Shown piece after piece: positions 2,249 to 18,838 of a DNA stretch of 20,321 nucleotides. Source of the DNA: a virus; the IMG/VR virus record IMGVR_UViG_3300025127_000375, positions 1 through 20,321 of that record. The stretch is one strand, 5' to 3'. The number at the start of each line of letters is the position of its first letter. The stretch's first letter is position 1. The notes beneath the pieces are model-generated. The model saw nothing but the letters and a program-made list of their open reading frames with translations, did not search any database and was not told where the DNA came from. Made by a program: the position numbers and the translations under genes.

Positions 2249-2488
2249 ATGGAAGATCAAGAACCAAGTAAAGTCGAAACCATAGTCAAAGTTTGTGTGC
2301 TTTTATGGTCGGCAACGCTATTATCTCTCTCATACTACGAACCGCCATCTGGTAAAAAGATTGTAGATTTTGACCCGACATTTATTGCAAGTATTTTTTC
2401 AGCTAGTACTGCATCACTAGGGTTTCAAATAAAGAAGAAAAAAGATACTATAGTAGATAATAAGAACACTAAAGTAACCACCAAATGA
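2249..2488 (+). CDS. Small membrane protein with two predicted TM segments, holin-like
   Basis: First gene of the plus-strand cassette, 79 residues. A charged N-terminus (MEDQEPSKVE) is followed by a hydrophobic segment at about 11-29 (TIVKVCVLLWSATLLSLSY), a short polar loop with EPPSGKKIVDFDP, a second hydrophobic segment at about 44-60 (TFIASIFSASTASLGF), and a basic tail starting IKKKK. Two membrane spans, small size and a basic C-terminus fit a class II holin such as T7 gp17.5, which lies between the fibre and terS genes in T7. Here the orientation is reversed and no endolysin is adjacent, so holin is an inference, not an identification. Its TGA overlaps the ATG of the next gene (ATGA), which suggests coupled translation. 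Confidence 0.75.
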   Translation: MEDQEPSKVETIVKVCVLLWSATLLSLSYYEPPSGKKIVDFDPTFIASIFSASTASLGFQIKKKKDTIVDNKNTKVTTK

Positions 2489-2844
2489 AGAAACTATTAT
2501 TACTAAGTTTGTTTTTAGTTGCACCTTGTTATGCAAACGGAGTGCCTTCTTGGACTACTGGCTCTAGTAACAGAACTGAGAATACTACACAGACTATAAC
2601 TCGCAGTGTAGTCACAGAAAAATATGGATCAGCCCTAAATACTTGGGAAGCATCTAATATTTCTGTAGCTGCTTCTGCTGGTATTTCTGGCGGTGATGCA
2701 GTATTTACAGTTGCAGATAGTACAAAAGATTGGTCACTTAGTATTACTACTAGGGCAGCAAGTCAAATGACCGAAAAGATTACTCTTAATGATGCGATTA
2801 CGACTACTAGCGTTATCACTTCTTTGTCTGTCTTTAGTCAGTAA
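2485..2844 (+). CDS. Secreted small protein with signal peptide, 119 aa
   Basis: The N-terminus MKKLLLLSLFLVAPCYA is a clear Sec signal peptide, with likely cleavage after Ala17. The mature part begins NGVPSWTTGSSNRTENTTQT and is rich in Ser, Thr and Asn with an alternating pattern that suggests beta structure. It ends TTTSVITSLSVFSQ. This resembles a family of small exported proteins I recall from marine cyanophages, usually encoded just before a second exported protein, as here. It should act in or beyond the periplasm, for example in lysis or in changing the cell surface, but no catalytic motif is visible and I do not assign a function. A lipoprotein box is not met (VAPC has Pro at -1). 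It overlaps the upstream gene by 4 bases and the downstream gene by 56. Confidence 0.85.
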   Translation: MKKLLLLSLFLVAPCYANGVPSWTTGSSNRTENTTQTITRSVVTEKYGSALNTWEASNISVAASAGISGGDAVFTVADSTKDWSLSITTRAASQMTEKITLNDAITTTSVITSLSVFSQ

Positions 2845-3325
2845 TAAAGCAAGAGCCGAAGGCGATACAAACGTACAGGCTCAACCAAATGCTGTTGGTA
2901 ATTCCAGTATTATCAACCAGAATATGAATGTTAATAATGGAATGACAGGTAAGCTACAGTTTGGAAACTTAGTTTGCAGTCAACCTACTATGGCTGTAAC
3001 TCCTTTTTATACAGGTAATGATGCAGAAAATACTGAAAGTGAAACCTATAGTATCAATGAAGGTTGGGGATTTCAAATGAGTTTTATGATACCGCTAGGA
3101 ACTAATAATGAAACGTGTTCTGAACTAGCAAAAGTAAAGCTAGACCTAGCCAAAGAAGAATTAGACAAGCAAGTGCATGATAAGCAGCTAGTTCGTATTT
3201 TGAAGTGCGGACAGCTTCACGCATCAGGCTACATGATAAATCCTAAGTCCAAATTCGCATATATCTGTAGTGATGTAATTAATATACGAAGTTATGTTAA
3301 AGCTAATTCCGAAAAATTTAAGTAG
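2789..3325 (+). CDS. Secreted cysteine-containing protein with signal peptide, 178 aa
   Basis: The N-terminus MMRLRLLALSLLCLSL, ending in an ARA site before EGD, is a signal peptide with cleavage near residue 23. The mature part has an Asn/Gln-rich stretch (residues about 28-50), then a core with FGNLVCSQPTMAVTPFYTGN, GWGFQMSFMIPLG and a helical region LAKVKLDLAKEELDKQ. Four cysteines in the mature protein (in LVCSQ, ETCSE, LKCGQ and YICSD) could form disulfides in the periplasm. The pattern matches a recurrent cyanophage exported protein that follows a smaller exported partner; this is from memory. The gene begins inside the preceding gene in another frame (56-base overlap). Its TAG stop lies in the outer stem of the convergent hairpin. 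Function unknown; a role in lysis or envelope modification is possible. Confidence 0.85.
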   Translation: MMRLRLLALSLLCLSLVSNKARAEGDTNVQAQPNAVGNSSIINQNMNVNNGMTGKLQFGNLVCSQPTMAVTPFYTGNDAENTESETYSINEGWGFQMSFMIPLGTNNETCSELAKVKLDLAKEELDKQVHDKQLVRILKCGQLHASGYMINPKSKFAYICSDVINIRSYVKANSEKFK

Positions 3326-5753: not shown

Positions 5754-8700
5754 TTATACCTCTGTAATTAAGAATCCACTCCAGTTAGTAATACCACCTG
5801 TACCCGAAATGTTACTAACACTACTAAAACTTTCGGTATTTCCTCCGTTTTGATGAGCATATACTTCAACATAATCGTTAGCAGCTAGATACATGACACC
5901 GTGAATTTGTATACCACCATCATTATTACCTGTTTGGTTCTGGCCACCTGATGGGAAGAAGTTATCAAAACCACCATTTTTTGCTAAAAGAGCATCACAT
6001 CTACCAGCACCTGTCATAGTAAATCTAATATTAACATCAAATTGATAGTAACCACTTACAGGTGCAGTGAATCGTGAATTAGATCCCGTATAGTTATTAC
6101 CCACATCAAAACTTTCACTACCAAATGTAACTTTAGTATTTGAATTATTAGGAAAACTTTGAGTACCAGTTTTATAGGCTCTAAATACTGGTTTAGCGGT
6201 TTCTTTTATATGTCCAGTAACTGTAACTCCGTTACTTGTAGTCTCAAACCTTTTAGTGGTGTGATGAAATAACTCAACAGCTCCAGTATATACAGTTTTT
6301 AATTTCCAGTTTCCAGCTTTATCTAAAAGCCCAAACTCTGTACTGTTACCATAAACATATCCACTGACTCCAGTATTGTTGTTCATTTTAATTTCAACAG
6401 TAGCATCAGTTTGATCGAAAACTGATATACCAGCACTTTGTGTCTCAAAAGTTTTTTCGTTGTCGTAATATAGCTCTACAGCTCCGTTACCCATAACTTT
6501 TATACCTTCTTCACCAGCTTGCGGCCTAATAAAAACATTATCTTGAGCTTGGATTAATACATCATCAAAAGTAGAAATAAGTTGTAAATCTCCAGCACCT
6601 CCAGAAGTGACTATACTATTGGTTCCGTCATAATATATTTTTAATTGTGCAGCATTTCCAAATTGTGCTTTATCGTTAGTGTCAAAATTTATATCATTAC
6701 TGTTGGTATCTAAGTCACCGCCTAGCTGTGGTGATGTGTCATTTACCAGATCAGTAACAACAGCAGCCCAACTTAAATTACCATTAGCATCTGTTGTTAA
6801 AAACTGACCATTAACAATATTAGAAGGGAACGTAAGAGTATAACTTTGCCCTGCACTATGCGGTGGAGATTTTAGTTTTATGCCATGACTATTCTGACTA
6901 CAGTTAAGTTGTAAATATCCATCAGAAGAGCCATCACCTTTTACAATAATACCAGCAGTAGATGATGTAGATACAAGGCTTAGTTTGCTACCTGCAATAT
7001 CAGCAGAGTTTGATATATCTCCATTTACAATACTTCCATCAACGATCATTGCAGACGTTACTGTGTTGTTGCTTGGAGTACCAATGTTTACAGTAGAACC
7101 AAGAACTATTGCAAAATAATCTGACCCACTAGCAGGCGCAGCAGCTAACTTAACTGTGCTGCCAGATAAAGCAAAACCCTCTGAAGGTGTAGATGTACCA
7201 CTATTAGGTTTCTGTATAACACCATTGATACTTAAAATTATCTGCTGTGCATTACTTGGTGCGTCTGTAATAGTAAAGTCCTGTACGCTTCCATTAAATG
7301 CAGGGCTAAGTGTAGATATAAAGAAGTTACCAACAGATTGTGCTTCTTCAAAAGCACCTGATGTTGAGTTATATACTAATAGCTTTTGAGTAGAAGTATT
7401 AAATATTAAATCCCCTGCATCATTATCACTTGTAGGGTTTGATGATACAACTCTATACCTAGATGCAAAGTCGTTTATATCATTACTAAGTTGTTCTACA
7501 TCAGCTTCTTTTGCTAGTAGTTTATGGTAGTTGTATATCTGACTTGCACCTGTAGAACTAACAAGAAGTCCTAACTCAGCAGCCATAGTTTTACCTCTAA
7601 GGCTTGCAGGGAAGTTATTAATAGTTACGTTATCAGACCCACTACCTACTGTTCTTGCATTTGTAGCAACACCACCAGAACTAACGATAAGACCATCTAT
7701 GTTTGCAATACTTATGACAACACCTGATACTGGCTGTGTTGCAGGGAAGCTATCTTCATCTGCTATAACTTCTAGTCCACCAACAGGTGCTATCTGATCT
7801 GCTACAAAATCTACAACAGCACCAGAAGTAGGAAAGTGACTATCACTATTGGTAATAGTAGTTTGCTTAGACATTCCTGATACTTGGTTTAAATCAGCAG
7901 TAGAACCTGTAAAACCATCTAATTTATTTAGTTCACCTGTATTTGCTGTAACACCATCAATAACTAATTTCTCTGCATCTGTAAGAGCGTTTGTATTGCT
8001 GTTTGATTCGTATAAAGTCTTAATCTCACTAGCAGTTTGATCGGCTGTAGCACTAGCTTCAATAGCGTTTAGCTTGCTATGGTCGGCATCTGTAAAGACG
8101 TTACTATCAGAAGCAGCTTCTACTGCTGCCCTGATCTCTGCATTGGTTTGATCTGCGGTAGCACCTGCTTCTATAGCATTTAGTTTTGTATGGTCTGCGT
8201 CTGTAAATACATTAGAGTCTGTTGCTGACTCTACAAGTGTTCTTATTTCAGCAGCAGTTTGGTCAGCAGTTGCACTTGCTTCTATACCATTCAACTTAGT
8301 ATGGTCAGCATCAGTAAATACGTTGCTATCACTAGCACTTTCAACAAGTGTTCTTATTTCTGCTGCGGTCTGGTCTGCTGTAGCAGAAGCTTCTATTGCA
8401 TTTAACTTAGAATGATCTGCGTCAGTAAAAACATTACTATCACTAGCACTTTCTACTAATGTTCTAATTTCTGCTGCTGTTTGATCTCCTGTTGCATTTT
8501 CTTCAATAGTTCCTAACTTATCAATAATCTCTTGTTGAGCAAATAATACTTGATCACTATTAGCATCAAGGTCTGCTTCTGTAAGAACAGAACCATCTGC
8601 AAAATCTACTTTCTTAGCACTAATATTTGTATCTCTTTGAAACTTTATAGCAACACCATTAGCAGGTTCATTACCAGAAGTAAATGTGATTTGGGTTGCA

Positions 8701-8855
8701 CTTGTAAATGTGTAGTGCGTAGTAATAGTTTTTAAAACACCACCTACAGTTACATCAACTTCTGCTTCTGAAAGATACGAAAAGGATATATTAAAAGGAC
8801 CAGCAGACCCATTGCCAGTATGATTTGTAAAAGATGCTGCTGTGTTAGTTGCCAT
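5754..8855 (-). CDS. gp17: Tail fibre protein with T7 gp17-like N-terminal domain
   Basis: The main fibre, 1033 residues (T7 gp17 is about 550). Residues 1 to about 115 form the T7 tail-fibre N-terminal domain that attaches to the nozzle (FNISFSYLSEAEVDVTVGG, TSATQITFTSGNEPANG, DGSVLTEADLDANSDQVLFA). Residues 124 to about 290 hold 37-residue repeats beginning DQTAAEIRTLVE and containing VFTDADHTKLN. Next come shaft modules with NSHGIKLKSPPHSAGQSY, AQLKIYYDGTNSIV and two AVELYYDN/AVELFHHT segments. From about residue 888 to the end is a C1q/TNF-like jelly-roll (PVFRAYKTGTQSF, FTAPVSGYYQFDVNI, VMYLAANDYVEVYAHQNGG), which probably contacts the receptor. It begins 5 bases after the gp16 stop. The order gp16-fibre is as in T7. 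The N-terminal and tip calls are strong; receptor binding is inferred. Confidence 0.93.
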   Translation of the reverse strand: MATNTAASFTNHTGNGSAGPFNISFSYLSEAEVDVTVGGVLKTITTHYTFTSATQITFTSGNEPANGVAIKFQRDTNISAKKVDFADGSVLTEADLDANSDQVLFAQQEIIDKLGTIEENATGDQTAAEIRTLVESASDSNVFTDADHSKLNAIEASATADQTAAEIRTLVESASDSNVFTDADHTKLNGIEASATADQTAAEIRTLVESATDSNVFTDADHTKLNAIEAGATADQTNAEIRAAVEAASDSNVFTDADHSKLNAIEASATADQTASEIKTLYESNSNTNALTDAEKLVIDGVTANTGELNKLDGFTGSTADLNQVSGMSKQTTITNSDSHFPTSGAVVDFVADQIAPVGGLEVIADEDSFPATQPVSGVVISIANIDGLIVSSGGVATNARTVGSGSDNVTINNFPASLRGKTMAAELGLLVSSTGASQIYNYHKLLAKEADVEQLSNDINDFASRYRVVSSNPTSDNDAGDLIFNTSTQKLLVYNSTSGAFEEAQSVGNFFISTLSPAFNGSVQDFTITDAPSNAQQIILSINGVIQKPNSGTSTPSEGFALSGSTVKLAAAPASGSDYFAIVLGSTVNIGTPSNNTVTSAMIVDGSIVNGDISNSADIAGSKLSLVSTSSTAGIIVKGDGSSDGYLQLNCSQNSHGIKLKSPPHSAGQSYTLTFPSNIVNGQFLTTDANGNLSWAAVVTDLVNDTSPQLGGDLDTNSNDINFDTNDKAQFGNAAQLKIYYDGTNSIVTSGGAGDLQLISTFDDVLIQAQDNVFIRPQAGEEGIKVMGNGAVELYYDNEKTFETQSAGISVFDQTDATVEIKMNNNTGVSGYVYGNSTEFGLLDKAGNWKLKTVYTGAVELFHHTTKRFETTSNGVTVTGHIKETAKPVFRAYKTGTQSFPNNSNTKVTFGSESFDVGNNYTGSNSRFTAPVSGYYQFDVNIRFTMTGAGRCDALLAKNGGFDNFFPSGGQNQTGNNDGGIQIHGVMYLAANDYVEVYAHQNGGNTESFSSVSNISGTGGITNWSGFLITEV
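7950..8486 (-). repeat. Tandem 111-bp coding repeats in the tail fibre gene
   Basis: The DNA encoding DQT recurs at 8478-8486, 8367-8375, 8256-8264, 8145-8153 and 8034-8042, an exact 111-bp (37-codon) period. Four units are full length and the fifth decays (KTLYESNSNTNALTDAEKL). Units 1 and 2 differ at about 23 of 111 bases yet at only two residues, so most differences are synonymous. Confidence 0.92.
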
Positions 8856-8860
8856 GATTA

Positions 8861-11800
8861 CTAAAAATTAGATAAATTTTTAATTGCTGATTCAACAGTT
8901 CCATTGTTTATTTCTTCTAGTTTATCAGTAAAATCTGCAAATAACTCTTGATTCTCAGGTTTGCCTAACCATTCTCTTCTAGCTTTTATTTTATACTTTG
9001 ATATTTCATCTTTTATTTTTCTTGATAATTTAGCTCTAGCATTATCTTGTATTCCTATCATAATTTCTTGATTAGTTGAATTTACATTTTCACCCATAGC
9101 TGTTTTATAGAAGGCTTTATTTTCTGGTTTATTCAATATTTCATATAATGTAACAATAAGTCTTTTACCATCAATTTTCGTATCAAAAGCCAAGTACTTA
9201 ACATAATCTGCATATTGCTTGCTTGTAAGTTCTATACCACTATTTTGTATTCCTTCTCTTCTTAAAAAGAATTTTTTAGGTGGTTGTAAAGCTATATTCA
9301 AATCATTAATAACACTAAGAACATAATTATCTTTTGTATTAGTAGCAGTAAAAGGATTCAAAACATCAAAGGTATCAGGTCCAAAACCACTAGGATATTT
9401 AACAACTGAACCTGTTAACCAATTTCTATCAGGTTCTAAATCTGCATTAAAATAAGGTATTGTTCTAGCTAATTCATTAAGAGTTTGTCTTAGACCTGTA
9501 ATCATTTCATCTGCTGGATAATATGTAGTATCAAGTTTTGTTTTGTCTGTGGCTCTTTTAACTGATCTACCTAGTCCAGCAACAGGATTAATAATATTAG
9601 CTACTCTTCTTGCTAGTAAACTTTGTAACGCATAAGGGTTATGTATGCCTTCAGCAACTTCACTAAGACCTCTTATATAAGTTCTGTCTGTTAAATTTCG
9701 TGCAATAGCAACAGTAAGTGCAGTAGTAAAATCGTTTCGTTGTTGACTACCTATTTGACCTTCTATTTCTACAAAATCTGCTGCAAGCATAAATAAACCA
9801 GACCAAGGGTCAAGTCTTTTATAAGAAATATATTTATATTTTGGTTTACCACTTTTTGTTAAAACTATTTCTCCATTTGAATCTCTTACAAGAAATCTAA
9901 ATGAATATGGTTGCCAGCCTTCTTCTTTTAATTGTTTTACTAATGTTCTGTTTGCTTCTGCTGCATCACCAAATCCTATTGTATTTGGACCTGCACCTGT
10001 CATGCCTATTTCTGCAAAAGGATTTTCCATATCTCTAGCAATTAAAGCTACTGAAGCAGCAAACCCACCTCCTAAATACATTTCACCTCTAGCTCTTGCA
10101 GCAATATTAGGGTCTGTACTTCTAAGTGCTTGCCTGTATTCACTCATAAATAAATTTACAACAGGTGTATATCTCATTTGTGTTTTAAGAATATTTATAG
10201 GAGTTCTTACAAAAGGAAAAACTATTCTTCCATAAGGGTGTTGTGCAAAATTCTGTACTCTTCCACTTATAGATTTTGGGTCTAATTCTTTTGTAAATGT
10301 AGCTTCAGCAGCAAAATCTCTAGCTTTTTTATACATTTCTTTAATACTCTCTGGTAAACCTCTAGTGCTGCCATTATCAACAATGTCAAATACTTTCTTT
10401 GTTTGCTCTTTAATATATCTTTTCAGTTTTGCTCCTTCTAAATTTTTTCTAACACCTTGCTCCCAAGCTTCTGCTTTTACATAAGCTCTAAAGTTTACTT
10501 GTTTTAAAAACTCGTCTTCTGTAATTAGCATACGAGAACCAAAACCATTTATTCTTCTAAAATTGTTATAAATAGAAGGAAGCCAAGCATCAGCTAAAAA
10601 CACATCAACAAAAGGTTTTACTGTTCCTCTAGTAACAATATTTTGATCTGCAAAATTTCTTACATCTTCTGCATTTATATTTCTTGATACTCGTTGTGCA
10701 TCTGAAACCATTGCACCTCTATCAAGTACATTTTCATTTACCTTAAAAGCTTTACGAGCAATGTTAAAAGCATCACCTAAAGATTCACCCATATAAATAA
10801 ACTGTTTCCAACCTTTTATAAATTCATCAGAATTAAATTCTGGTTTAAATACTAAATTATCTCTTCTAGCTAAAAGTGTATCTGCAAAAGAAATATCCAT
10901 ATCTTTTCTAAAAGTAATTTTTGCAGCACCAAGAGATTGGCTTAATGGTTTTGACAAAGTATTTAAACTTGTAGATAAAAGGTTAACTATATGAGTAGGT
11001 GGACCACTAAGAATAGAGTTAATAAATATTTCGTTTGTAAATTCTACACCCTTTAAAAGTAATCCTTTTTTAATCATGTGCTTCATAACTTCTGGATTAC
11101 CACCTGCTACGTTCAAGTATTTTGTAAGTCGTGTTAAAGCTAAAGCAGCTTCTTGATCTCCTTTTTCTACTAAATCAAAAATCTTATTAAAGGTTTCATC
11201 TATTTCACTTACCCCTACATTTTCAACAAAATCTCTATTTATATTATTTACATTTTCTGTACCTCTTGATCTTCTACCAAAATCTTTTGCTTCTGTTACT
11301 CTATCTCTTAAATCACCTGCAATTCTTCTAGCACCTAAAGATTGTGATGTTAAAGAACCAACTCCTTTATTTAAGTAAACAAGACCTTTTAATACTTTTA
11401 CTTCTTTCAAAAATGCTGGTTTTATTTCTTTTACTAAATCTGCATTTTTTGTAGCTATAGCATTATGCAAAGCAGCAGACAAATTAAAAACAGCTTCGCC
11501 ATTTTTATTCATCATTTGATTTATGGTTATAGCTGTAGCAGGTAAATATCTTTTGTTATTAATTAATTTGCCATTTGTAGTTTTTTTGAAAGGACCAAAT
11601 TCTTGTAATAAAAATCTAGCAGCTTCTAAAGCTTCTCCTTCTGTTTGTCTTTGAGAAGCAGCAAACATATCACCTAAAGATACAGACCTAGCCCATTGTC
11701 CTAATTCATCTGTGCTTTTAAAATATTCAGCAATATTCAACATATAATCTGTAAGCTCTTCTATACCACCACCAGTTATGTTTGGATTAAATGTAGATTC

Positions 11801-12781
11801 TATTTTGTCACCGACTTCTGGTATCTGTGTTGTATCTCCTATACCTTTTCCTTTTTTTACCTCTAAAGGTTTTATTAAATCAATGACTTTTGTATCTAAT
11901 AATTCGTTACCAGCTTCATCAATACCAAGGTCTTTAAACTTTAATTTTCTTTTACGTTCTAAGGTTGATATAATTTTTGGAGCTAAAGGGGAATTTCTAA
12001 AACCTTTCAAAGCTACAGATAAACCTGTTAAAACTTCTCCTATAACTGCACCACCAAAAGCTTTTCTAAATCTTGCTTCTATTGGAGATATATCATCATC
12101 AGCTTTAAATACTGATGCTGGCATTTTTAACACATCTATAACAGGTTCTAAAGCACCTTCATATTCATCAACCATGTTGTAAAGGTTTTGTTCAAATGGG
12201 TCTTCTACAACAAAATCTGTAAGAAAACCTGCAACAAGGTTTCTTGTCCAAGGATTTTTAATACCTTTAAGACCTTTGCTAAAGATACCCATAGGTAGTA
12301 AGAACTGAGTTATAGCCTGTGGTATCTGAAAAAATGCACCATCATCTTCTCTTTCAAAATAACTGTAATCAATAAGATCATTATTATCGTATGGATTACC
12401 AGCTAGATAATCGTATATATCATCTGCAAACTCTACAGTTTCATTTATTGCTTTTAAAGGACCAGTAATAGCTCCTCTTATAACTTGCGACTGTGGTGTT
12501 TTAGTTATTTCTTCACTAATCTTTTCATTTTTTTCTTTTGCTTCATTTATTATTCGTGATCTGTTTTCAAGTATTTCTTCAAAACTTCTTTGATCTCCTA
12601 AAAACTTATTATCAAAAAAATCTACTACACCTGCTTGGCTTTTGTTTATAGCTTTACTTACAGAAGAAAGAGGTTGATTATCAAAACTTTGAAACAAAGC
12701 GTCTGTTTCTGGTGTTTCTATTTTTTTCTTTTCTTCTTCCTCTTCATTGTTTAGAAGATTAGTGATGTTTGAGTCTGTCAT
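8861..12781 (-). CDS. gp16: Large internal virion protein (T7 gp16 equivalent)
   Basis: 1306 residues, almost the same length as T7 gp16 (1318), and placed between gp15 and the fibre as in T7. It should be part of the ejected internal core that carries DNA across the envelope. The first 100 residues are highly charged and look disordered (LNNEEEEEKKKIETPETDAL), with no lytic transglycosylase signature, unlike T7 gp16. The middle is mostly helical. Around residues 845-870, HPYGRIVFPFVRTPINILK resembles a segment found in large internal proteins of cyanopodoviruses, and a Gly/Ala-rich hydrophobic patch follows near 900 (LGGGFAASVALIA). The C-terminus is helical and charged. It begins one base after the gp15 stop. 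Sequence similarity to T7 is weak, so the call rests on order, length and the cyanopodovirus-like segments. Confidence 0.85.
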   Translation of the reverse strand: MTDSNITNLLNNEEEEEKKKIETPETDALFQSFDNQPLSSVSKAINKSQAGVVDFFDNKFLGDQRSFEEILENRSRIINEAKEKNEKISEEITKTPQSQVIRGAITGPLKAINETVEFADDIYDYLAGNPYDNNDLIDYSYFEREDDGAFFQIPQAITQFLLPMGIFSKGLKGIKNPWTRNLVAGFLTDFVVEDPFEQNLYNMVDEYEGALEPVIDVLKMPASVFKADDDISPIEARFRKAFGGAVIGEVLTGLSVALKGFRNSPLAPKIISTLERKRKLKFKDLGIDEAGNELLDTKVIDLIKPLEVKKGKGIGDTTQIPEVGDKIESTFNPNITGGGIEELTDYMLNIAEYFKSTDELGQWARSVSLGDMFAASQRQTEGEALEAARFLLQEFGPFKKTTNGKLINNKRYLPATAITINQMMNKNGEAVFNLSAALHNAIATKNADLVKEIKPAFLKEVKVLKGLVYLNKGVGSLTSQSLGARRIAGDLRDRVTEAKDFGRRSRGTENVNNINRDFVENVGVSEIDETFNKIFDLVEKGDQEAALALTRLTKYLNVAGGNPEVMKHMIKKGLLLKGVEFTNEIFINSILSGPPTHIVNLLSTSLNTLSKPLSQSLGAAKITFRKDMDISFADTLLARRDNLVFKPEFNSDEFIKGWKQFIYMGESLGDAFNIARKAFKVNENVLDRGAMVSDAQRVSRNINAEDVRNFADQNIVTRGTVKPFVDVFLADAWLPSIYNNFRRINGFGSRMLITEDEFLKQVNFRAYVKAEAWEQGVRKNLEGAKLKRYIKEQTKKVFDIVDNGSTRGLPESIKEMYKKARDFAAEATFTKELDPKSISGRVQNFAQHPYGRIVFPFVRTPINILKTQMRYTPVVNLFMSEYRQALRSTDPNIAARARGEMYLGGGFAASVALIARDMENPFAEIGMTGAGPNTIGFGDAAEANRTLVKQLKEEGWQPYSFRFLVRDSNGEIVLTKSGKPKYKYISYKRLDPWSGLFMLAADFVEIEGQIGSQQRNDFTTALTVAIARNLTDRTYIRGLSEVAEGIHNPYALQSLLARRVANIINPVAGLGRSVKRATDKTKLDTTYYPADEMITGLRQTLNELARTIPYFNADLEPDRNWLTGSVVKYPSGFGPDTFDVLNPFTATNTKDNYVLSVINDLNIALQPPKKFFLRREGIQNSGIELTSKQYADYVKYLAFDTKIDGKRLIVTLYEILNKPENKAFYKTAMGENVNSTNQEIMIGIQDNARAKLSRKIKDEISKYKIKARREWLGKPENQELFADFTDKLEEINNGTVESAIKNLSNF

Positions 12782-12782
12782 T

Positions 12783-15359
12783 TTAGTTCTTTAAAAACTG
12801 TTTGTAAGAGTTGTCTGTATATGCACCCCAAGCACCAAGTCCTTGTTCATCATATAATCTCTTGGCAGCAATCACATTAATAATAGGGTCGTATAATTCT
12901 TCTTCAGATTCAATATCAAATAAATCTAATAGTCTTTCTCTGTCATCTTTCATATTTAATTGTAATAGACCTATAGAAAATTCATTTTTCTTTTCTGGGT
13001 CTAAACCAGACTTTACAGTATCAATCATAGGATTACCTGCTGACTCTGCCATTGCCACAGCAGCCATGATTTTTGCAATCTCTGGTTCAAAACCTACAGC
13101 TAATAACATATCTTCTATCTTAGGTTGTCCTATTACTTTTGTCTTATCTGTATCTTTTAATATTACGTTCAATGCTTTTATTTGATTATCTTTAACTTCT
13201 CTCATATTTACTCTTTCAACTATTGGCATAATTAATTCTTGCCCTACATTTATCATGTCTGGATTAGTTAAATTATTAGCTTCCATAATAGCTTGTACTG
13301 ATGAACTAAATTGATCTGCTAATTGACTTAAGGTATCACCTTCTTCAACAGTTACAGTAGTGGGTGAGTCACCACTAAAAGTACTAGCTTCTAAGTTATC
13401 ACCATCTACTAATAATTTCATAGGTTCATAAATTCTAGGACTACCACCAAATCCATATTCACCTGTTTGTAAGAATCGAATTATTCTATCTGCTTCTGAT
13501 TTACCTACAATATTAAAACGACTCATTTTTTGTTTTTCAGCAACTACTGTCTCGATTAATTTATCTCTATTTTCTTTTGTAATACCACCCATTCTTGTCA
13601 ATTCTGCAATAACTCTTGATTCAACCGAAGGTAAAGATGTATTACCAAAGAAATCACCAGTTTCTTTTTCTTTCTCTTCTATCGTTGTAGGTACACCTTC
13701 AAGTCCACTTTGGTTTTGATTAATTATTTCAGCATTAACATCATCTTGGGCTGAAGAAGGGTCAACAAGTGTATTTAATTGTTCAATAAGTTTTTCTTCA
13801 TACTTTGCTTGAAGCTCTAAATATTTATTTTCAAACCCTTCTGTACCAGCATCTTTGTTTTGTAGTCTCCATTCTCTAAATTCTGTTTTTAAATCTTCAG
13901 TATTTAATTTTATAAAACCAAGCATTTGATCTTTTTTTATTATTTGATAAATTTTAAATTTATCATTTGTTTCTAATTGTAATTTTGCTCTGTTTTCATA
14001 TCTAACAAAATATCCATTAAGAGGTTCAAAAAGTCCTTGATCTACAGAACCAGTTAATGTCATTAGCTTATTAAGTAAATTTAAATTTCTTGCAGTTTTA
14101 GGTGTGCCTTCATCTAAAAACCAACCTATCGCTGCTGCCCTTGCAGAAGCTAAATCTTCGTAATTGCCAGCATATATATTACCTTGTACTTGTGCATATT
14201 TCTGTAAAGTATCACCATCTAAAGCTGCTGCATTTGTTTCTATTGATGCTGCTTTTAATGGGTTATTTCCTTTTATTCTTTCTAATAAATTTGCTGCTTC
14301 ATTTCCCTTATCTGCATTTAATAAATCAACATATAATAATAAATCATCATTTAATTTTTTGTCTTTTAATCTTTTTGCTTCTGCTACTATTCGAGTATCT
14401 TTTTTATAACTATAGTCTTCAACATCTTCTAATAGTTTGTTTTTTGTAGAAATAAAATCTGGGTGATTTGTAAGATTTAATTTGCCACCAGCACCATAAG
14501 GAAAGAATTGTGCAAAACCAAAAAGTTCATTAGCAAGGTCTTCATCTCCTGTTTCGTAACCTATCTCTTTTGCCTTTGCAGCTAAAGTATCTAATATAGA
14601 TTTATTAAGATTTGATCTCTGAGTTGAAGTTAAACCTAATTTGTTAACATCATTTTCAAAAGTTTCGATTTGGTTCATCATTAATAAAAATTTCTTTTTA
14701 TTAAAACCATCTTTATCTTGTAAACTAGCTGAATACATATCAAGAACATTACTAGCAATAGTCGTTGCTGAAGCTTCTATATTTGTAAATTCAAGCTTTT
14801 GATTTTCTTTTAATGCAAATTCATTAATCTTATCTTTTGCATCAATAAGATAAGGTAAAAACTTTTTAGTAAAGGTGTCTTCATCAATATCACCAACAGC
14901 ATCTATAACTTCATTTATCTGTCCACTTTCCCAATCTCTATACTCTTGAGAATCTAGTGTAAAACTTGATAGTGGTTTACCATCAATCGTTGTTGTGCGG
15001 TAAGAATTTTTTAATTTAGTTTCTAAAGTACCACCTAAAATTTGTGCTTTGCTTCTTCTGAAAGCTCGATCATAAAATATATTTCCACCAATTAATTGAC
15101 CTGATTTTAATATTTTTGTAGTTTCTTTAAAATCATCTAACGAACCATCTAACGCATCATTTATAGCTTTATTAGCTTCTTTCTTTGCTTCTTTTTCAAT
15201 TTGTGTACCAAGAAACTTTTGTAAGTTAGGATTTACTACTTTTAAAATATCAGCTAATTCTTCTGCACCTGTTTTTGGTAATACTCTTGGTGGTGCTACA
15301 AAAGTATCTACAGGACTAGCAGACGATCTGAAAGCAGTACTTTGAAAACTTGAGGTCAT
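12783..15359 (-). CDS. gp15: Internal virion protein (gp15 equivalent) with LysM and lytic transglycosylase domains
   Basis: 858 residues against about 747 in T7 gp15. The first 650 or so are helical and charged, as expected for a core protein. Residues about 668-714 form a LysM peptidoglycan-binding motif (VEEGDTLSQLADQFSSSVQA, then IMEANNLTNPDMINVGQELI). Residues about 745-850 form an SLT-type lytic transglycosylase: IMAAVAMAESAGNP with the likely catalytic Glu772, then FSIGLLQLN corresponding to the family's GLMQ motif, then NVIAAKRLYDEQGLGAWGAY. In T7 the transglycosylase lies at the N-terminus of gp16. Here it is at the C-terminus of the gene before it. The protein should help form the ejected channel and cut peptidoglycan locally. 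It overlaps gp14 by four bases (ATGA). The enzyme domain is clear; the gp15 identity rests on order. Confidence 0.88.
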   Translation of the reverse strand: MTSSFQSTAFRSSASPVDTFVAPPRVLPKTGAEELADILKVVNPNLQKFLGTQIEKEAKKEANKAINDALDGSLDDFKETTKILKSGQLIGGNIFYDRAFRRSKAQILGGTLETKLKNSYRTTTIDGKPLSSFTLDSQEYRDWESGQINEVIDAVGDIDEDTFTKKFLPYLIDAKDKINEFALKENQKLEFTNIEASATTIASNVLDMYSASLQDKDGFNKKKFLLMMNQIETFENDVNKLGLTSTQRSNLNKSILDTLAAKAKEIGYETGDEDLANELFGFAQFFPYGAGGKLNLTNHPDFISTKNKLLEDVEDYSYKKDTRIVAEAKRLKDKKLNDDLLLYVDLLNADKGNEAANLLERIKGNNPLKAASIETNAAALDGDTLQKYAQVQGNIYAGNYEDLASARAAAIGWFLDEGTPKTARNLNLLNKLMTLTGSVDQGLFEPLNGYFVRYENRAKLQLETNDKFKIYQIIKKDQMLGFIKLNTEDLKTEFREWRLQNKDAGTEGFENKYLELQAKYEEKLIEQLNTLVDPSSAQDDVNAEIINQNQSGLEGVPTTIEEKEKETGDFFGNTSLPSVESRVIAELTRMGGITKENRDKLIETVVAEKQKMSRFNIVGKSEADRIIRFLQTGEYGFGGSPRIYEPMKLLVDGDNLEASTFSGDSPTTVTVEEGDTLSQLADQFSSSVQAIMEANNLTNPDMINVGQELIMPIVERVNMREVKDNQIKALNVILKDTDKTKVIGQPKIEDMLLAVGFEPEIAKIMAAVAMAESAGNPMIDTVKSGLDPEKKNEFSIGLLQLNMKDDRERLLDLFDIESEEELYDPIINVIAAKRLYDEQGLGAWGAYTDNSYKQFLKN

Positions 15360-15934
15360 GCGAGGGCAGCAATAGAAGTATAAGAATTAAGACCTGATGT
15401 GGCTACATTAAGCAGTACAGAGCCTAATGAAGGTATCTGATTATATGCTTGATTTATATTACTTTGTAATTCATTACGTCTATTATCTCTTTGTGCAACA
15501 AGACCATCAACATTTCTTCTGTATTGTTTAGTTGCTGATTCAAGTGCTTGATTTATAGATTCTCTAGCATTTGCTGACTGCCTTTCTGCATCACGCAATA
15601 AGTAGCCAACAGTAAGACCTGCTTGTTCTGATGCTATGGTACGACCTCTAGCTTGTAATCCTTCTATAGTTTTTGCTAAATTTTCTTGTGCTGAAGATGC
15701 TCTTGTTTCTTTTAAATTATCTGCCAAAGCTTCTTGTTGTGCAGCAAAAGCTTGTTCTGCTGATCTGTTTGCTATTAATGAAGATTGATATGTTTGATCT
15801 GCTGCTGCCCTAGCTGCACTTCTTTGTGCTAAACCACCAGCCAAACCAAGACCTAAAGACGCTGCAAATAAACCAGCAGAAGCACCTGATAAAGCTCCAC
15901 CTGTTAAAGCTGCTCCTACTGCTGGAAGACACAT
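15356..15934 (-). CDS. gp14: Internal virion protein (T7 gp14-like)
   Basis: 192 residues, close to T7 gp14 (196), in the same place between gp13 and gp15. The N-terminus is an Ala/Gly-rich hydrophobic segment (residues about 5-35, VGAALTGGALSGASAGLF through LGLGLAGG) that could insert into the outer membrane during ejection, as known for T7 gp14. The rest is a long Ala/Gln/Arg-rich helix with coiled-coil character (AAQQEALADNLKETRASSAQ, ERQSANARESINQALESATK, NELQSNINQAYNQ), ending in a short hydrophobic tail. Its ATG directly follows the TAA of gp13 (TAAATG), and its TGA overlaps the gp15 ATG, so translation of these core genes is coupled. Length, composition and order all agree. Confidence 0.88.
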   Translation of the reverse strand: MCLPAVGAALTGGALSGASAGLFAASLGLGLAGGLAQRSAARAAADQTYQSSLIANRSAEQAFAAQQEALADNLKETRASSAQENLAKTIEGLQARGRTIASEQAGLTVGYLLRDAERQSANARESINQALESATKQYRRNVDGLVAQRDNRRNELQSNINQAYNQIPSLGSVLLNVATSGLNSYTSIAALA

Positions 15935-16387
15935 TTAGGCAATCCTCAGAAATTCATAAAATGGTTTACTTTGTTTTCCATATTCTGCGTGATAATTAAT
16001 AAAAGTAAACCCAAGACTTTTCAGCCATTTGATAGCTGTTGTATTCTCAGCATATACCATATTGTATAGCAAATTATAATTTTTCAATAGATCATCTACC
16101 CATTTCTTACCTTCTCTTACTAATTGTATTTTATATTTTTTATTACTAAACAATTCATCTGTTGTTATACACCATATACACCCATCACTTACGACACCAC
16201 ATAACCCCATTGGTTGATCTTCGTCACCAGCTATAGTCAATACCTGCTGTCCATACAGATATGTTAGTCGTAGTGCATCTTCTGGCTCTTTGCCTGTCTG
16301 ATAATAAGCTTCTATTTTATCTATATCTCTCATGTTTTTACATACATGGTTGAGGTCATGTATGTTTGCTTTTCTCAAATACCCCAT
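15935..16387 (-). CDS. gp13: T7 gp13-like virion protein with GNAT-type fold
   Basis: 150 residues, similar in size to T7 gp13 (138). LLYNMVYAENTTAIKWLKSLGF (residues 106-127, read as two overlapping halves) aligns with the T7 gp13 segment around LWNYVWVGNTSHIRFLKTIG, and the end KPFYEFLRI corresponds to T7 FQLFTI. The pattern N-x-x-A-I-x-W/F-L-x-x-x-G-F is that of the C-terminal half of GNAT acetyltransferases. The usual acetyl-CoA loop (Q/R-x-x-G-x-G/A) is not visible, so enzyme activity is doubtful. In T7 the protein is needed for correct virion assembly. The gene abuts the gp12 stop (TAGATG) and the gp14 start. Alternative annotation: a plain GNAT acetyltransferase. Confidence 0.87.
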   Translation of the reverse strand: MGYLRKANIHDLNHVCKNMRDIDKIEAYYQTGKEPEDALRLTYLYGQQVLTIAGDEDQPMGLCGVVSDGCIWCITTDELFSNKKYKIQLVREGKKWVDDLLKNYNLLYNMVYAENTTAIKWLKSLGFTFINYHAEYGKQSKPFYEFLRIA

Positions 16388-18838
16388 CTAGACTCTACGA
16401 CTTCTCATATAGAACATAGCTTCATATTCTGCACTTGATAACTGTGTTGGTAGGAAAGTGTCATTTTTCACATCTATATCAACCCTATCTGCCCTACTCA
16501 TTATTGGTACTCTAAACGTACCTGTCTCTAGATTTATTTGACCAATAGCAGCAGACGCAGCACCAAGCAAACGACCAGTAAATTTATGTGTACTTGTATC
16601 TCTGTTCTCAGGTGTTACTTCTACTCTAAAAAATCCTGTATCTTCAAACTTTATATAGAAGTGATGTAGCTGCAATCTGCCACTAATAAATTCACTTCTT
16701 TGACCAGCACCTTCTGTAAGTCTTTGTTGACTAAATCTATAGTGCATCAAGAAAGGTTCACCGATAATAAATTTACTATTTCTAAAATCACCATTGGCTG
16801 TGATGGTAGAGGTAGAACCATTCGTAGCGTTTGTTGTTTGTATCTGCTGACCAGATTTTAAAGCTACTGTATTGCCTTGAGGGTTTACAAAAGTACTTGT
16901 TTCACCGCTTGCTAAATATCTACCAACAATATTCATATTGGCCCTTAACCTATAAGGTACTGTAAAGGTACTTACGTCTGTACTTGCGTTGTAAGCAACA
17001 GAAACACCTGTCGTTGCTTCAGTAACTTTATGATCTAGATGAAATTCAAACTCTGAGTTAGCTTCTCTAAACTCTGCTTCAAAAGGTATCTTTTCTAAAG
17101 TTGTACCATTTGCTTCTTCTACTACACAAAATAGATCAGTACCAATAAAGTCTATATTTCTAATAGACCTAGCAGAGTTGAATGTATAAGTTGACCAGCT
17201 ATTTAATATCTTTTGAAAGTTCTCTCCATATAACCATCTGTTTATGTACAACTTGTTTGGATTATCTGTACCGAGCAAAACCAAAACATCTTCGTTTGTA
17301 CTGACAGCTAACTTAAAAACATTACTTGGTATAAGTCTTGGTACATGAATAGTGATATTACTTGCTTCTTTGATAGCTACATTCTCTTGTGTTATATATT
17401 CTCTTACACCAGCAAAACTACCTTTCTGCGTTAGATAGTAGATAGAAGAACCAGAACCTACAGGCTGTGCAGAATCACTAGATTCAAATTCTGTTGCTAC
17501 TACTACGTTTGCAGTCTTTGGTGTCAGCGTATCAGAAGAAGACGTAAGAACAAATTGCGTTTGATCTGAAAACAAGATTAACTGTTCTCCCATAGTTACT
17601 GCGTGTTTAAGAATAGCAACTTTAGTATGAGAAGCACCAACGTCTATAGGGTCAGAATCTATAACAGATATAACTGTCTCAGGAAAAAAGTTAAAGAACT
17701 CTGCAACTCTTGATAAGACAACATTATCATCAGCTAGAAACCCTAGTCTGTTTCTAAAGAAAAATACGTTGTTTATAGTAGCTCCAACAAAAGAAGGGTT
17801 GGGTGCAGAATCTTGATCTCCAACAGTACGTTCACCCCATTTAGGTAAAGTAAATGTTTGACCGCTTGCTGTATAACTATCACCATCTACTCTTGCAAAT
17901 CTAAAATTACCATCTGCCTGACGTATAAGAACGTGTGGCATTGTTGCATAGTCAAATTTAAAAGGTATGCCAGCTTCTACAGTCTCTTCCCATTGCCCTT
18001 CTTCGAAAGCACCACCATTATTAGTGACAAACTTAACGTAGTAATTATCAAAGTTTGTCGCTTCATCTCCTTTTATTTCTACGACATAACCATTTGGAGA
18101 GACAGTAGGCAAGTCAGTAAATCTTTGTACTGAATCTTTTACTACTGTTAACTGTGTATTACCTTGAGTGTCATTACCATCTATAGAAAAATTACTGCCA
18201 TCATTCTTTTTTATATGTATCACAGGACCATTTCTAGCAATCGTAAAACCTGTAAGACCAGAATTAAGACCTGCTACCAGATCAGATGCTACTTGTGTAG
18301 TGCTAAGTGCAGAATCAGTTGTAGTGTCATCAGTCACAGTCACCCCATCTACTGTTATTGAATATGTAGTCTTATCTGAGACTTGATTTATAAATACAAC
18401 AGCTTGAGTTATGTTGCCAGCACTAACCGCACTATCCATAGCAGTTGTGATACCTGTATTTACAACAAAAGTGAAGTCAGCAATAGTGATAGTTTTTATT
18501 ACACTTCTTGGGTTTGATGTGTTTAGGTAAGCAGTGCCATCAGGTTTATGCACAGTTAGTTCAGTACCATCAAGCTCATAAACTTTGACATTACCATTGC
18601 TAAATATTGCTACATATCTTTCGTTTATATCTCTGTTGATAGTTTGTATATGAACATTACCGATAGCAGAACTACTTAGTGTAGTAATAAACTGTGTGCC
18701 AGATCGTTTTGTTAGACCTTGTACTGGATTACTGTTTGCGTTGTCTTGTATGTCTGCATGGTCAGCTTGCTTTGTAGAGTCAGCAGCTTGTGATACACCT
18801 CTCAATAGTGTAGGTATTGCTCTTGAAACTACAGCCAT
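16388..18838 (-). CDS. gp12: Tail tubular protein B, nozzle (T7 gp12)
   Basis: 816 residues against 794 in T7 gp12. It forms the hexameric nozzle at the tip of the short tail, through which DNA leaves. The family hallmarks are visible: an N-terminal LLRGVSQAADSTKQADHADI, then NPVQGLTKRSGTQFITTL, a central segment around FFRNRLGFLADDNVVLSRVA, FFNFFPETVISVIDSDPIDV, and LFSDQTQFVLTSSSDTLTP, and a C-terminus NDTFLPTQLSSAEYEAMFY ending RSRRV, which is close to the usual end of gp12 proteins. It begins two bases after the gp11 stop and abuts gp13. Its plus-strand frames at 17858-18386 are shadows. The call is secure. Confidence 0.97.
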   Translation of the reverse strand: MAVVSRAIPTLLRGVSQAADSTKQADHADIQDNANSNPVQGLTKRSGTQFITTLSSSAIGNVHIQTINRDINERYVAIFSNGNVKVYELDGTELTVHKPDGTAYLNTSNPRSVIKTITIADFTFVVNTGITTAMDSAVSAGNITQAVVFINQVSDKTTYSITVDGVTVTDDTTTDSALSTTQVASDLVAGLNSGLTGFTIARNGPVIHIKKNDGSNFSIDGNDTQGNTQLTVVKDSVQRFTDLPTVSPNGYVVEIKGDEATNFDNYYVKFVTNNGGAFEEGQWEETVEAGIPFKFDYATMPHVLIRQADGNFRFARVDGDSYTASGQTFTLPKWGERTVGDQDSAPNPSFVGATINNVFFFRNRLGFLADDNVVLSRVAEFFNFFPETVISVIDSDPIDVGASHTKVAILKHAVTMGEQLILFSDQTQFVLTSSSDTLTPKTANVVVATEFESSDSAQPVGSGSSIYYLTQKGSFAGVREYITQENVAIKEASNITIHVPRLIPSNVFKLAVSTNEDVLVLLGTDNPNKLYINRWLYGENFQKILNSWSTYTFNSARSIRNIDFIGTDLFCVVEEANGTTLEKIPFEAEFREANSEFEFHLDHKVTEATTGVSVAYNASTDVSTFTVPYRLRANMNIVGRYLASGETSTFVNPQGNTVALKSGQQIQTTNATNGSTSTITANGDFRNSKFIIGEPFLMHYRFSQQRLTEGAGQRSEFISGRLQLHHFYIKFEDTGFFRVEVTPENRDTSTHKFTGRLLGAASAAIGQINLETGTFRVPIMSRADRVDIDVKNDTFLPTQLSSAEYEAMFYMRSRRV

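Follow-up and report, generated by a model that had tools for sequence, protein, structure and literature searches.

An apparently exchangeable cell-wall-cutting tip on the gp15-type ejection protein of T7-like phages related to Prochlorococcus phage P-SCSP2

Phage ejection proteins are usually treated as a scaffold that diverges fast. The domain shuffling documented for phages concerns mainly receptor-binding proteins and endolysins. After ejection, T7 gp14 ends up in the outer membrane, gp15 in the periplasm and gp16 in the cytoplasm (PMC11784390; also a 2022 review, PMC8954989, which places the N-terminal portion of gp16 on the gp15 tunnel). The murein-cutting SLT domain of T7 lies at the N-terminus of gp16 (residues 15-127; E 1.7e-31), as a sequence-only reading of the DNA analysed here had stated. 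In other phages, the wall-cutting domain resides on the gp15 homologue: phiKMV gp36 carries a C-terminal lysozyme, the activity of which has been shown experimentally, and the same paper counts SP6 gp36 among the virion lysozymes (PMC5380687). In SP6 gp36, the Phage_lysozyme domain (PF00959) spans residues 770-905 of 978, and K1E gp35 is of the same kind. In PhiM1, a lysozyme-like domain (residues 718-903) of OEP, a gp15-type protein, has been resolved on the octameric layer of the core (PMC11440229). Furthermore, the 2022 review concludes that swapping can carry the hydrolase domain from gp16 to the gp15 homologue; its passages on these phages describe no exchange within a clade (PMC8954989). 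Thus, a wall-cutting domain on a gp15 homologue is already known from phiKMV, SP6, K1E and PhiM1, and the location in itself is ordinary rather than new. What is new is the survey of a clade in which the frequency of tip exchange is unusual; we found no earlier description of such within-clade exchange in the open-access literature.

The window, that is, the whole stretch of DNA that was analysed, is a record of 20,321 bases from a marine T7-like virus, with a GC content of 35%. The minus strand carries its late structural genes, arranged as in T7: gp10-gp11-gp12-gp13-gp14, an 858-aa protein, a 1306-aa protein and a T7-type fibre. In the T7-type ejectosome order gp11-gp12-gp13-gp14-gp15-gp16-gp17, the equivalents of gp11, gp12, gp13, gp14, gp16 and gp17 were all matched by Pfam or PHROG profiles. 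The genes on which the argument turns are the following:

5754-8855, minus strand: gp17-type tail fibre (PF03906, 1.5e-20)
8861-12781, minus strand: gp16-equivalent ejection protein, 1306 aa, with no wall-cutting domain detectable by Pfam or PHROG
12783-15359, minus strand: gp15-equivalent ejection (tube) protein, 858 aa, with the C-terminal cassette; the open reading frame between the gp14 and gp16 equivalents
15356-15934, minus strand: gp14-equivalent ejection protein (PF24072 T7_gp14, 2e-10)
15935-16387, minus strand: gp13 equivalent (PF11090, 3.8e-9; phrog_308, 2.5e-33)
16388-18838, minus strand: gp12 nozzle, the anchor of the survey (PF25675, 5e-253)

The closest isolate by gp12 is Prochlorococcus phage P-SCSP2 (77% identical). 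Given that this isolate infects Prochlorococcus, that the GC content is 35% and that the relatives listed for one of the tip types described below, cassette D, are mostly cyanophages, a picocyanobacterial host is likely, if unproven.

The window shares with T7 both the gene order and the three-protein core of gp14, gp15 and gp16; T7 gp15 has no Pfam enzyme or LysM match. The 858-aa protein is equated with T7 gp15 by its position and size. In hhalign comparisons, this protein has no sequence or profile match to T7 gp15 and no sequence-level match to phiKMV gp36. Its structure model (pLDDT 70 overall) is mostly helical over residues 31-652 and poor (pLDDT <50) for the LysM and for a portion of the SLT domain, and a Foldseek comparison with T7 gp15 (6ysz) gave a probability of 0.80 but an E-value of 0.74, which is not significant.

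The C-terminus of this protein carries a LysM motif followed by a lytic transglycosylase-type domain, as the sequence-only reading had proposed down to the glutamate and the motif that it named:

13377-13391, minus strand: hinge peptide EASTF (residues 657-661; EA[GS]xF or EGGAF in relatives), just inside the junction at codon 653
13224-13352, minus strand: LysM domain (residues 670-712; PF01476), an optional module between codons 653 and ~715
12849-13100, minus strand: SLT_3 lytic-transglycosylase domain (residues 754-837; PF18896), the same gp15 C-terminal domain as in 34 of 84 complete gp15s
13044-13046, minus strand: predicted catalytic Glu772, in the context AMAES, invariant in 28 relatives
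12954-12980, minus strand: FSIGLLQLN motif (residues 794-802), which within cassette A takes the form FS(I/L)GL(L/F/W)Q(L/I)(N/D) or SYGLFQIN

The LysM match (E 6.2e-14) scores 52.1 bits against a cut-off of 20.9 and extends to solved LysM structures. At 40.2 bits (E 5e-10), the SLT_3 match exceeds its curated threshold of 27 bits, whereas that to the classic SLT family PF01464 (residues 764-834; E 2.3e-4; 21.2 bits) falls just below its cut-off of 21.3. Glu772, Ser773, Ser795, Gly797 and Gln800 are invariant across 28 aligned relatives. Judged from sequence, the domain is a member of SLT_3 with a conserved candidate catalytic glutamate, and the 858-aa protein is a gp15-position protein with a C-terminal lytic domain of the phiKMV/SP6 kind, the activity of which is predicted. 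The resemblance to phiKMV extends to the gene order and to the C-terminal position of the wall-cutting domain. The enzyme of phiKMV gp36, however, belongs to another family (phrog_2083/phrog_13211 lysozyme, with no Pfam match), and no LysM was found in that protein. Likewise, SP6 gp36 and K1E gp35 place a lytic domain on the gp15 homologue, but it is of the Phage_lysozyme family and comes without a LysM.

Conversely, neither a Pfam search at E<=1 nor a repeat scan that included 16 relatives showed an SLT domain in the gp16 equivalent, in agreement with the sequence-only reading, and the only family match of this protein was phrog_6651 'internal virion protein' (9e-44). No wall-cutting domain of any kind was detected in the gp16 of the window or of the 16 relatives. 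PhiM1 differs in that its gp16-type protein, TEP, also bears an endolysin-like domain (residues 268-528); an insertion of this style in the window gp16 is excluded at the level of sequence, and the structure model of residues 1-700 (pLDDT 38) is uninformative, both on this point and on the putative disordered N-terminus that the sequence-only reading proposed. Among 24 phages surveyed, an N-terminal SLT was detectable in the gp16 of T7 and RHEph01 only. The N-terminal gp16 SLT thus seems to be a trait of T7 itself rather than a general one in Autographiviridae, and the window gp16 does not display it.

The sequence-only reading held that the domain had moved from gp16, which would mean that, in an ancestral phage, the very SLT of T7 gp16 was transferred to gp15. 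The absence of an SLT from the window gp16 fits such a transfer, as does the fact that Pfam SLT matches T7 gp16 and, just below its cut-off, the window cassette. However, a profile of 34 cassettes aligned to the T7 gp16 SLT with an hhalign probability of 0.1, the best family of the window cassette is SLT_3 rather than SLT, lysozyme domains from different families occupy this end of the gp15 homologue in SP6 and, with a weak match, in Syn5, and the content of the slot changes repeatedly within the clade. Relocation is therefore strongly disfavoured by the profile comparison and, in our judgement, very improbable; the cassette looks like a separate acquisition. A search of a genome collection for a cellular source of the LysM-SLT cassette returned one phage-bearing contig in a bin labelled Flavobacteriaceae and five matches limited to the LysM part. 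The contig (PBVB01000089.1), which carries a close relative of the window gp15-gp16 region (89% over LysM-SLT), is probably a mis-binned phage contig.

We surveyed the clade with the 858-aa protein itself, which yielded 44 IMG/VR loci, and with the gp12 anchor and P-SCSP2 gp15 as queries, which added ~100 further loci. Among the 44, loci of the same phage type have gp15s closed by the SLT, with the LysM either present or replaced by 'PSTPED' (the latter in L017, L018 and L026-L038). When 84 complete gp15s were clustered by their C-terminal 140 aa, they fell into five tip groups unlinked by BLAST, the sizes of which are counts and not abundances: SLT_3 (34), GH73 (19), cassette C (18), lambda-lysozyme-like (cassette D; 9) and SLT_1 (4). 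Among the gp12-anchored relatives with a complete gp15, the corresponding numbers are 10, 14, 4, 9 and 4. The GH73 tip is a glucosaminidase (PF01832, 2e-15 to 2e-16); SLT_1, the classic SLT, matches PF01464 (2.7e-5) and PDB 9udh 'lytic transglycosidase' (1.1e-4); and the lambda-lysozyme-like tip matches phrog_90 endolysin (1.2e-7) and has relatives annotated 'lambda lysozyme'. Cassette C is a conserved domain of ~170 aa ('KYAIAQMVLTEA...GVMQSVLMRVARARLG') at the C-terminus of P-SCSP2 gp29 (L001 19990-20589) and in 17 relatives; searches of Pfam, PHROGs, NCBIfam and PDB, and of phage records beyond P-SCSP2, gave nothing significant for it. A guess from its motif that it might be SleB/Hydrolase_2 was rejected, with PF07486 matching 0 of 8 records at E<=1. 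Because cassette C has no family match, it is unproven that the tip is always a wall enzyme. Comparison of the classes by hhalign detected similarity only between SLT_1 and GH73 (82%). GH73, SLT and lambda lysozyme share a common lysozyme-like superfamily fold.

In a BLAST search with the window LysM, a LysM of this type accompanied four of the five families, namely, SLT_3 (19/34), GH73 (9/19), lambda-lysozyme-like (5/9) and SLT_1 (2/4), and none of the 18 cassette C tips; L092 has an additional, divergent LysM-like stretch. The question raised by the sequence-only reading, whether the arrangement is clade-wide, thus receives a divided answer: the slot sits on gp15 in the sampled relatives, whereas its content is drawn from at least five families and the LysM is optional. 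Two side observations concern the loci recovered here. In another marine phage type (L042-L046; e.g., L044:7449-9374), a protein of ~640 aa combines a Peptidase_M23 with an SLT_3 domain ~54% identical to that of the window, and the gp12 nozzle ORFs of L031, L032, L035 and L039 are enlarged (893-1007 aa vs 816 in the window), which suggests an inserted domain.

The isolates exhibit the same diversity in one place. P-SCSP1u, assigned to MPP-C and, like P-SCSP2, among the nearest isolates by gp12, resembles the window in that its gp22 ends in SLT_3 (residues 838-930), and S-CBP3 also has an SLT_3 tip, whereas P-SCSP2, of the same MPP-C, has cassette C in the slot. The tip-bearing genes of P-SCSP1u and P-SCSP2 were left unannotated, and the authors saw no similarity between the internal proteins of the two phages (PMC9860041). 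In Synechococcus phage S-SRP02, p045 is a gp15-position protein (968 aa) with a C-terminal cassette, but the cassette is the lambda-lysozyme-like D, annotated as an amidase, and the host is a freshwater one. Domains at the C-terminus of the gp15-position protein are thus found in P-SCSP1u, S-CBP3, S-SRP02, SP6 and, weakly, Syn5.

Exchange of the tips is evident from comparisons in which body and tip disagree. In L025 and L039, the gp15 body is ~19% identical to that of the window over aligned residues, whereas the LysM is 85-89% and the SLT 88% identical; L010 displays the opposite pattern, with 83% in the body and 44% in the SLT. DNA identity profiles resolve the shared cassette as an island of ~600 nt: L025, L039 and L023 share 83-86% DNA identity with the window over 12730/12765-13402, and the surrounding gp15 body and gp16 are at background (about 50%). 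By blastn, homology to the window begins at 13400-13402 in these three loci and, in the GH73 phage L133, ends at 13403 and resumes at 12742, whereas L010 and L124 break after the LysM, at 13221 and 13215, and resume at 12806 and 12784, respectively. The recurring breakpoints imply three joints, one near codon 653 (nt 13402/13403), one near codon 715 and one where gp15 stops and gp16 starts. At the first of these, the peptide EA[GS]xF (or EGGAF) is found in gp15s that bear SLT_3, GH73 and SLT_1 tips alike.

The most closely related pairs are the most telling. L027 (SLT_3) and L092 (SLT_1) are 97% identical over gp15 residues 1-500 and 96.6% over gp16, with 95% DNA identity on either side of the tip, and the sole replacement within the aligned region is that of 386 bp in L027 (5139-5524) by 647 bp in L092 (6015-6661), the second homology block beginning at the gp15 stop. 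The pattern is repeated in L104 (GH73) and L118 (cassette C) at 93%, L126 (SLT_3) and L123 (GH73) at 80%, and L013 (SLT_3) and L133 (GH73) at 77%. For pairs with gp15 bodies at least 60% identical, identity over the C-terminal 130 aa is 22-26% if the tip classes differ and 83-95% if they are the same. The gp15-body tree calls for at least 16 cassette changes vs a minimum of 4, and, with each class taken separately, the starred branches alone force at least 10 (SLT_3), 7 (GH73), 2 (cassette C), 3 (lambda-lysozyme-like) and 4 (SLT_1) class changes. Because the deep joins of this tree, which involve long branches, are uncertain, the shallow swaps carry the argument.

All these close pairs are metagenome contigs from IMG/VR, individual ones of which may be chimeric assemblies, so that the apparent swaps could in principle be artefacts of assembly. 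However, the same junctions recur across contigs, at 13400-13403 in L025, L039, L023 and L133 and at 13215-13221 in L010 and L124, each tip class recurs in several samples, and the isolates P-SCSP2, P-SCSP1u, S-CBP3 and S-SRP02 bear different cassettes at the same place. Chimerism is, accordingly, a most implausible source of the pattern. We propose that the gp15-type tube protein probably ends in a plug-in tip for a cell-wall-cutting enzyme, with LysM and SLT_3 being the version found in the window.

A different role has to be considered: the cassette, although part of a virion protein, might also or even chiefly serve as the endolysin that lyses the host. Domain shuffling of this sort is known from endolysins (PMC10684548), and Amidase_2, Phage_lysozyme, Peptidase_M15_3 and M15_4 are absent from P-SCSP2 (OM416780) and from the near-complete clade genomes G006 and G008 (36-37 kb). 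Given that these four endolysin families were the ones tested in the clade genomes, however, an unrecognised endolysin is likely. Moreover, all of the complete relatives that were examined have the cassette fused in frame to a large ejection protein, and an internal ATG at codon 647 is preceded by no clear ribosome-binding site by eye. We therefore consider a lysis enzyme to be unlikely and return to the plug-in tip on the tube protein.

Under the plug-in scenario, gp14, gp15 and gp16 would exit the head after adsorption and the gp15 tube would assemble across the periplasm, such that an enzyme fused to gp15 would arrive together with the tunnel itself. Placement of the enzyme in a core layer different from that in T7, as the sequence-only reading suggested, appears reasonable by analogy with the gp15-type octameric layer of PhiM1 (PMC11440229). 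The LysM is predicted to bind and tether the tip to the glycan, and SLT_3 to cleave strands locally via Glu772, which would open a passage for gp16 and DNA. The tip would hang on the EA[GS]xF hinge (codons 653-661), and recombination would swap it at three preferred joints, one on either side of the LysM and the third where gp15 ends and gp16 begins, so that close relatives would run the same machine with differing tips.

Glucosaminidase and lytic transglycosylase families cut different glycan bonds. Near-identical versions of one ejectosome scaffold are found with different wall-cutting enzymes, and at least these two differ in bond chemistry by family; such natural matched pairs can be used to ask what the enzyme contributes to entry. 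The survey also supplies annotation for previously unannotated genes of abundant Prochlorococcus phages. A bolder and rather tentative possibility is that the tip is a dedicated slot under diversifying exchange, like receptor-binding tips, in which relatives alike over almost all of the sampled late region repeatedly replace the wall-opening enzyme, with the LysM as a second interchangeable part and the hinge as the fixed joint, and with cassette C as an undescribed wall-breaching family; if so, the injection enzyme would be one of the factors that decide which hosts, or cells in which wall state, are open to infection.

Finally, outside the late gene block, window positions 2249-3325 (plus strand, opposite to the late structural genes) contain three overlapping small ORFs of 79, 119 and 178 aa; two of them begin like signal peptides, and one has a membrane-like stretch. 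The ORFs match P-SCSP2 gp38, gp37 and gp36 at 31, 86 and 93%, respectively, and the corresponding region of P-SCSP1u contains a three-gene block on the minus strand (33107-34192).
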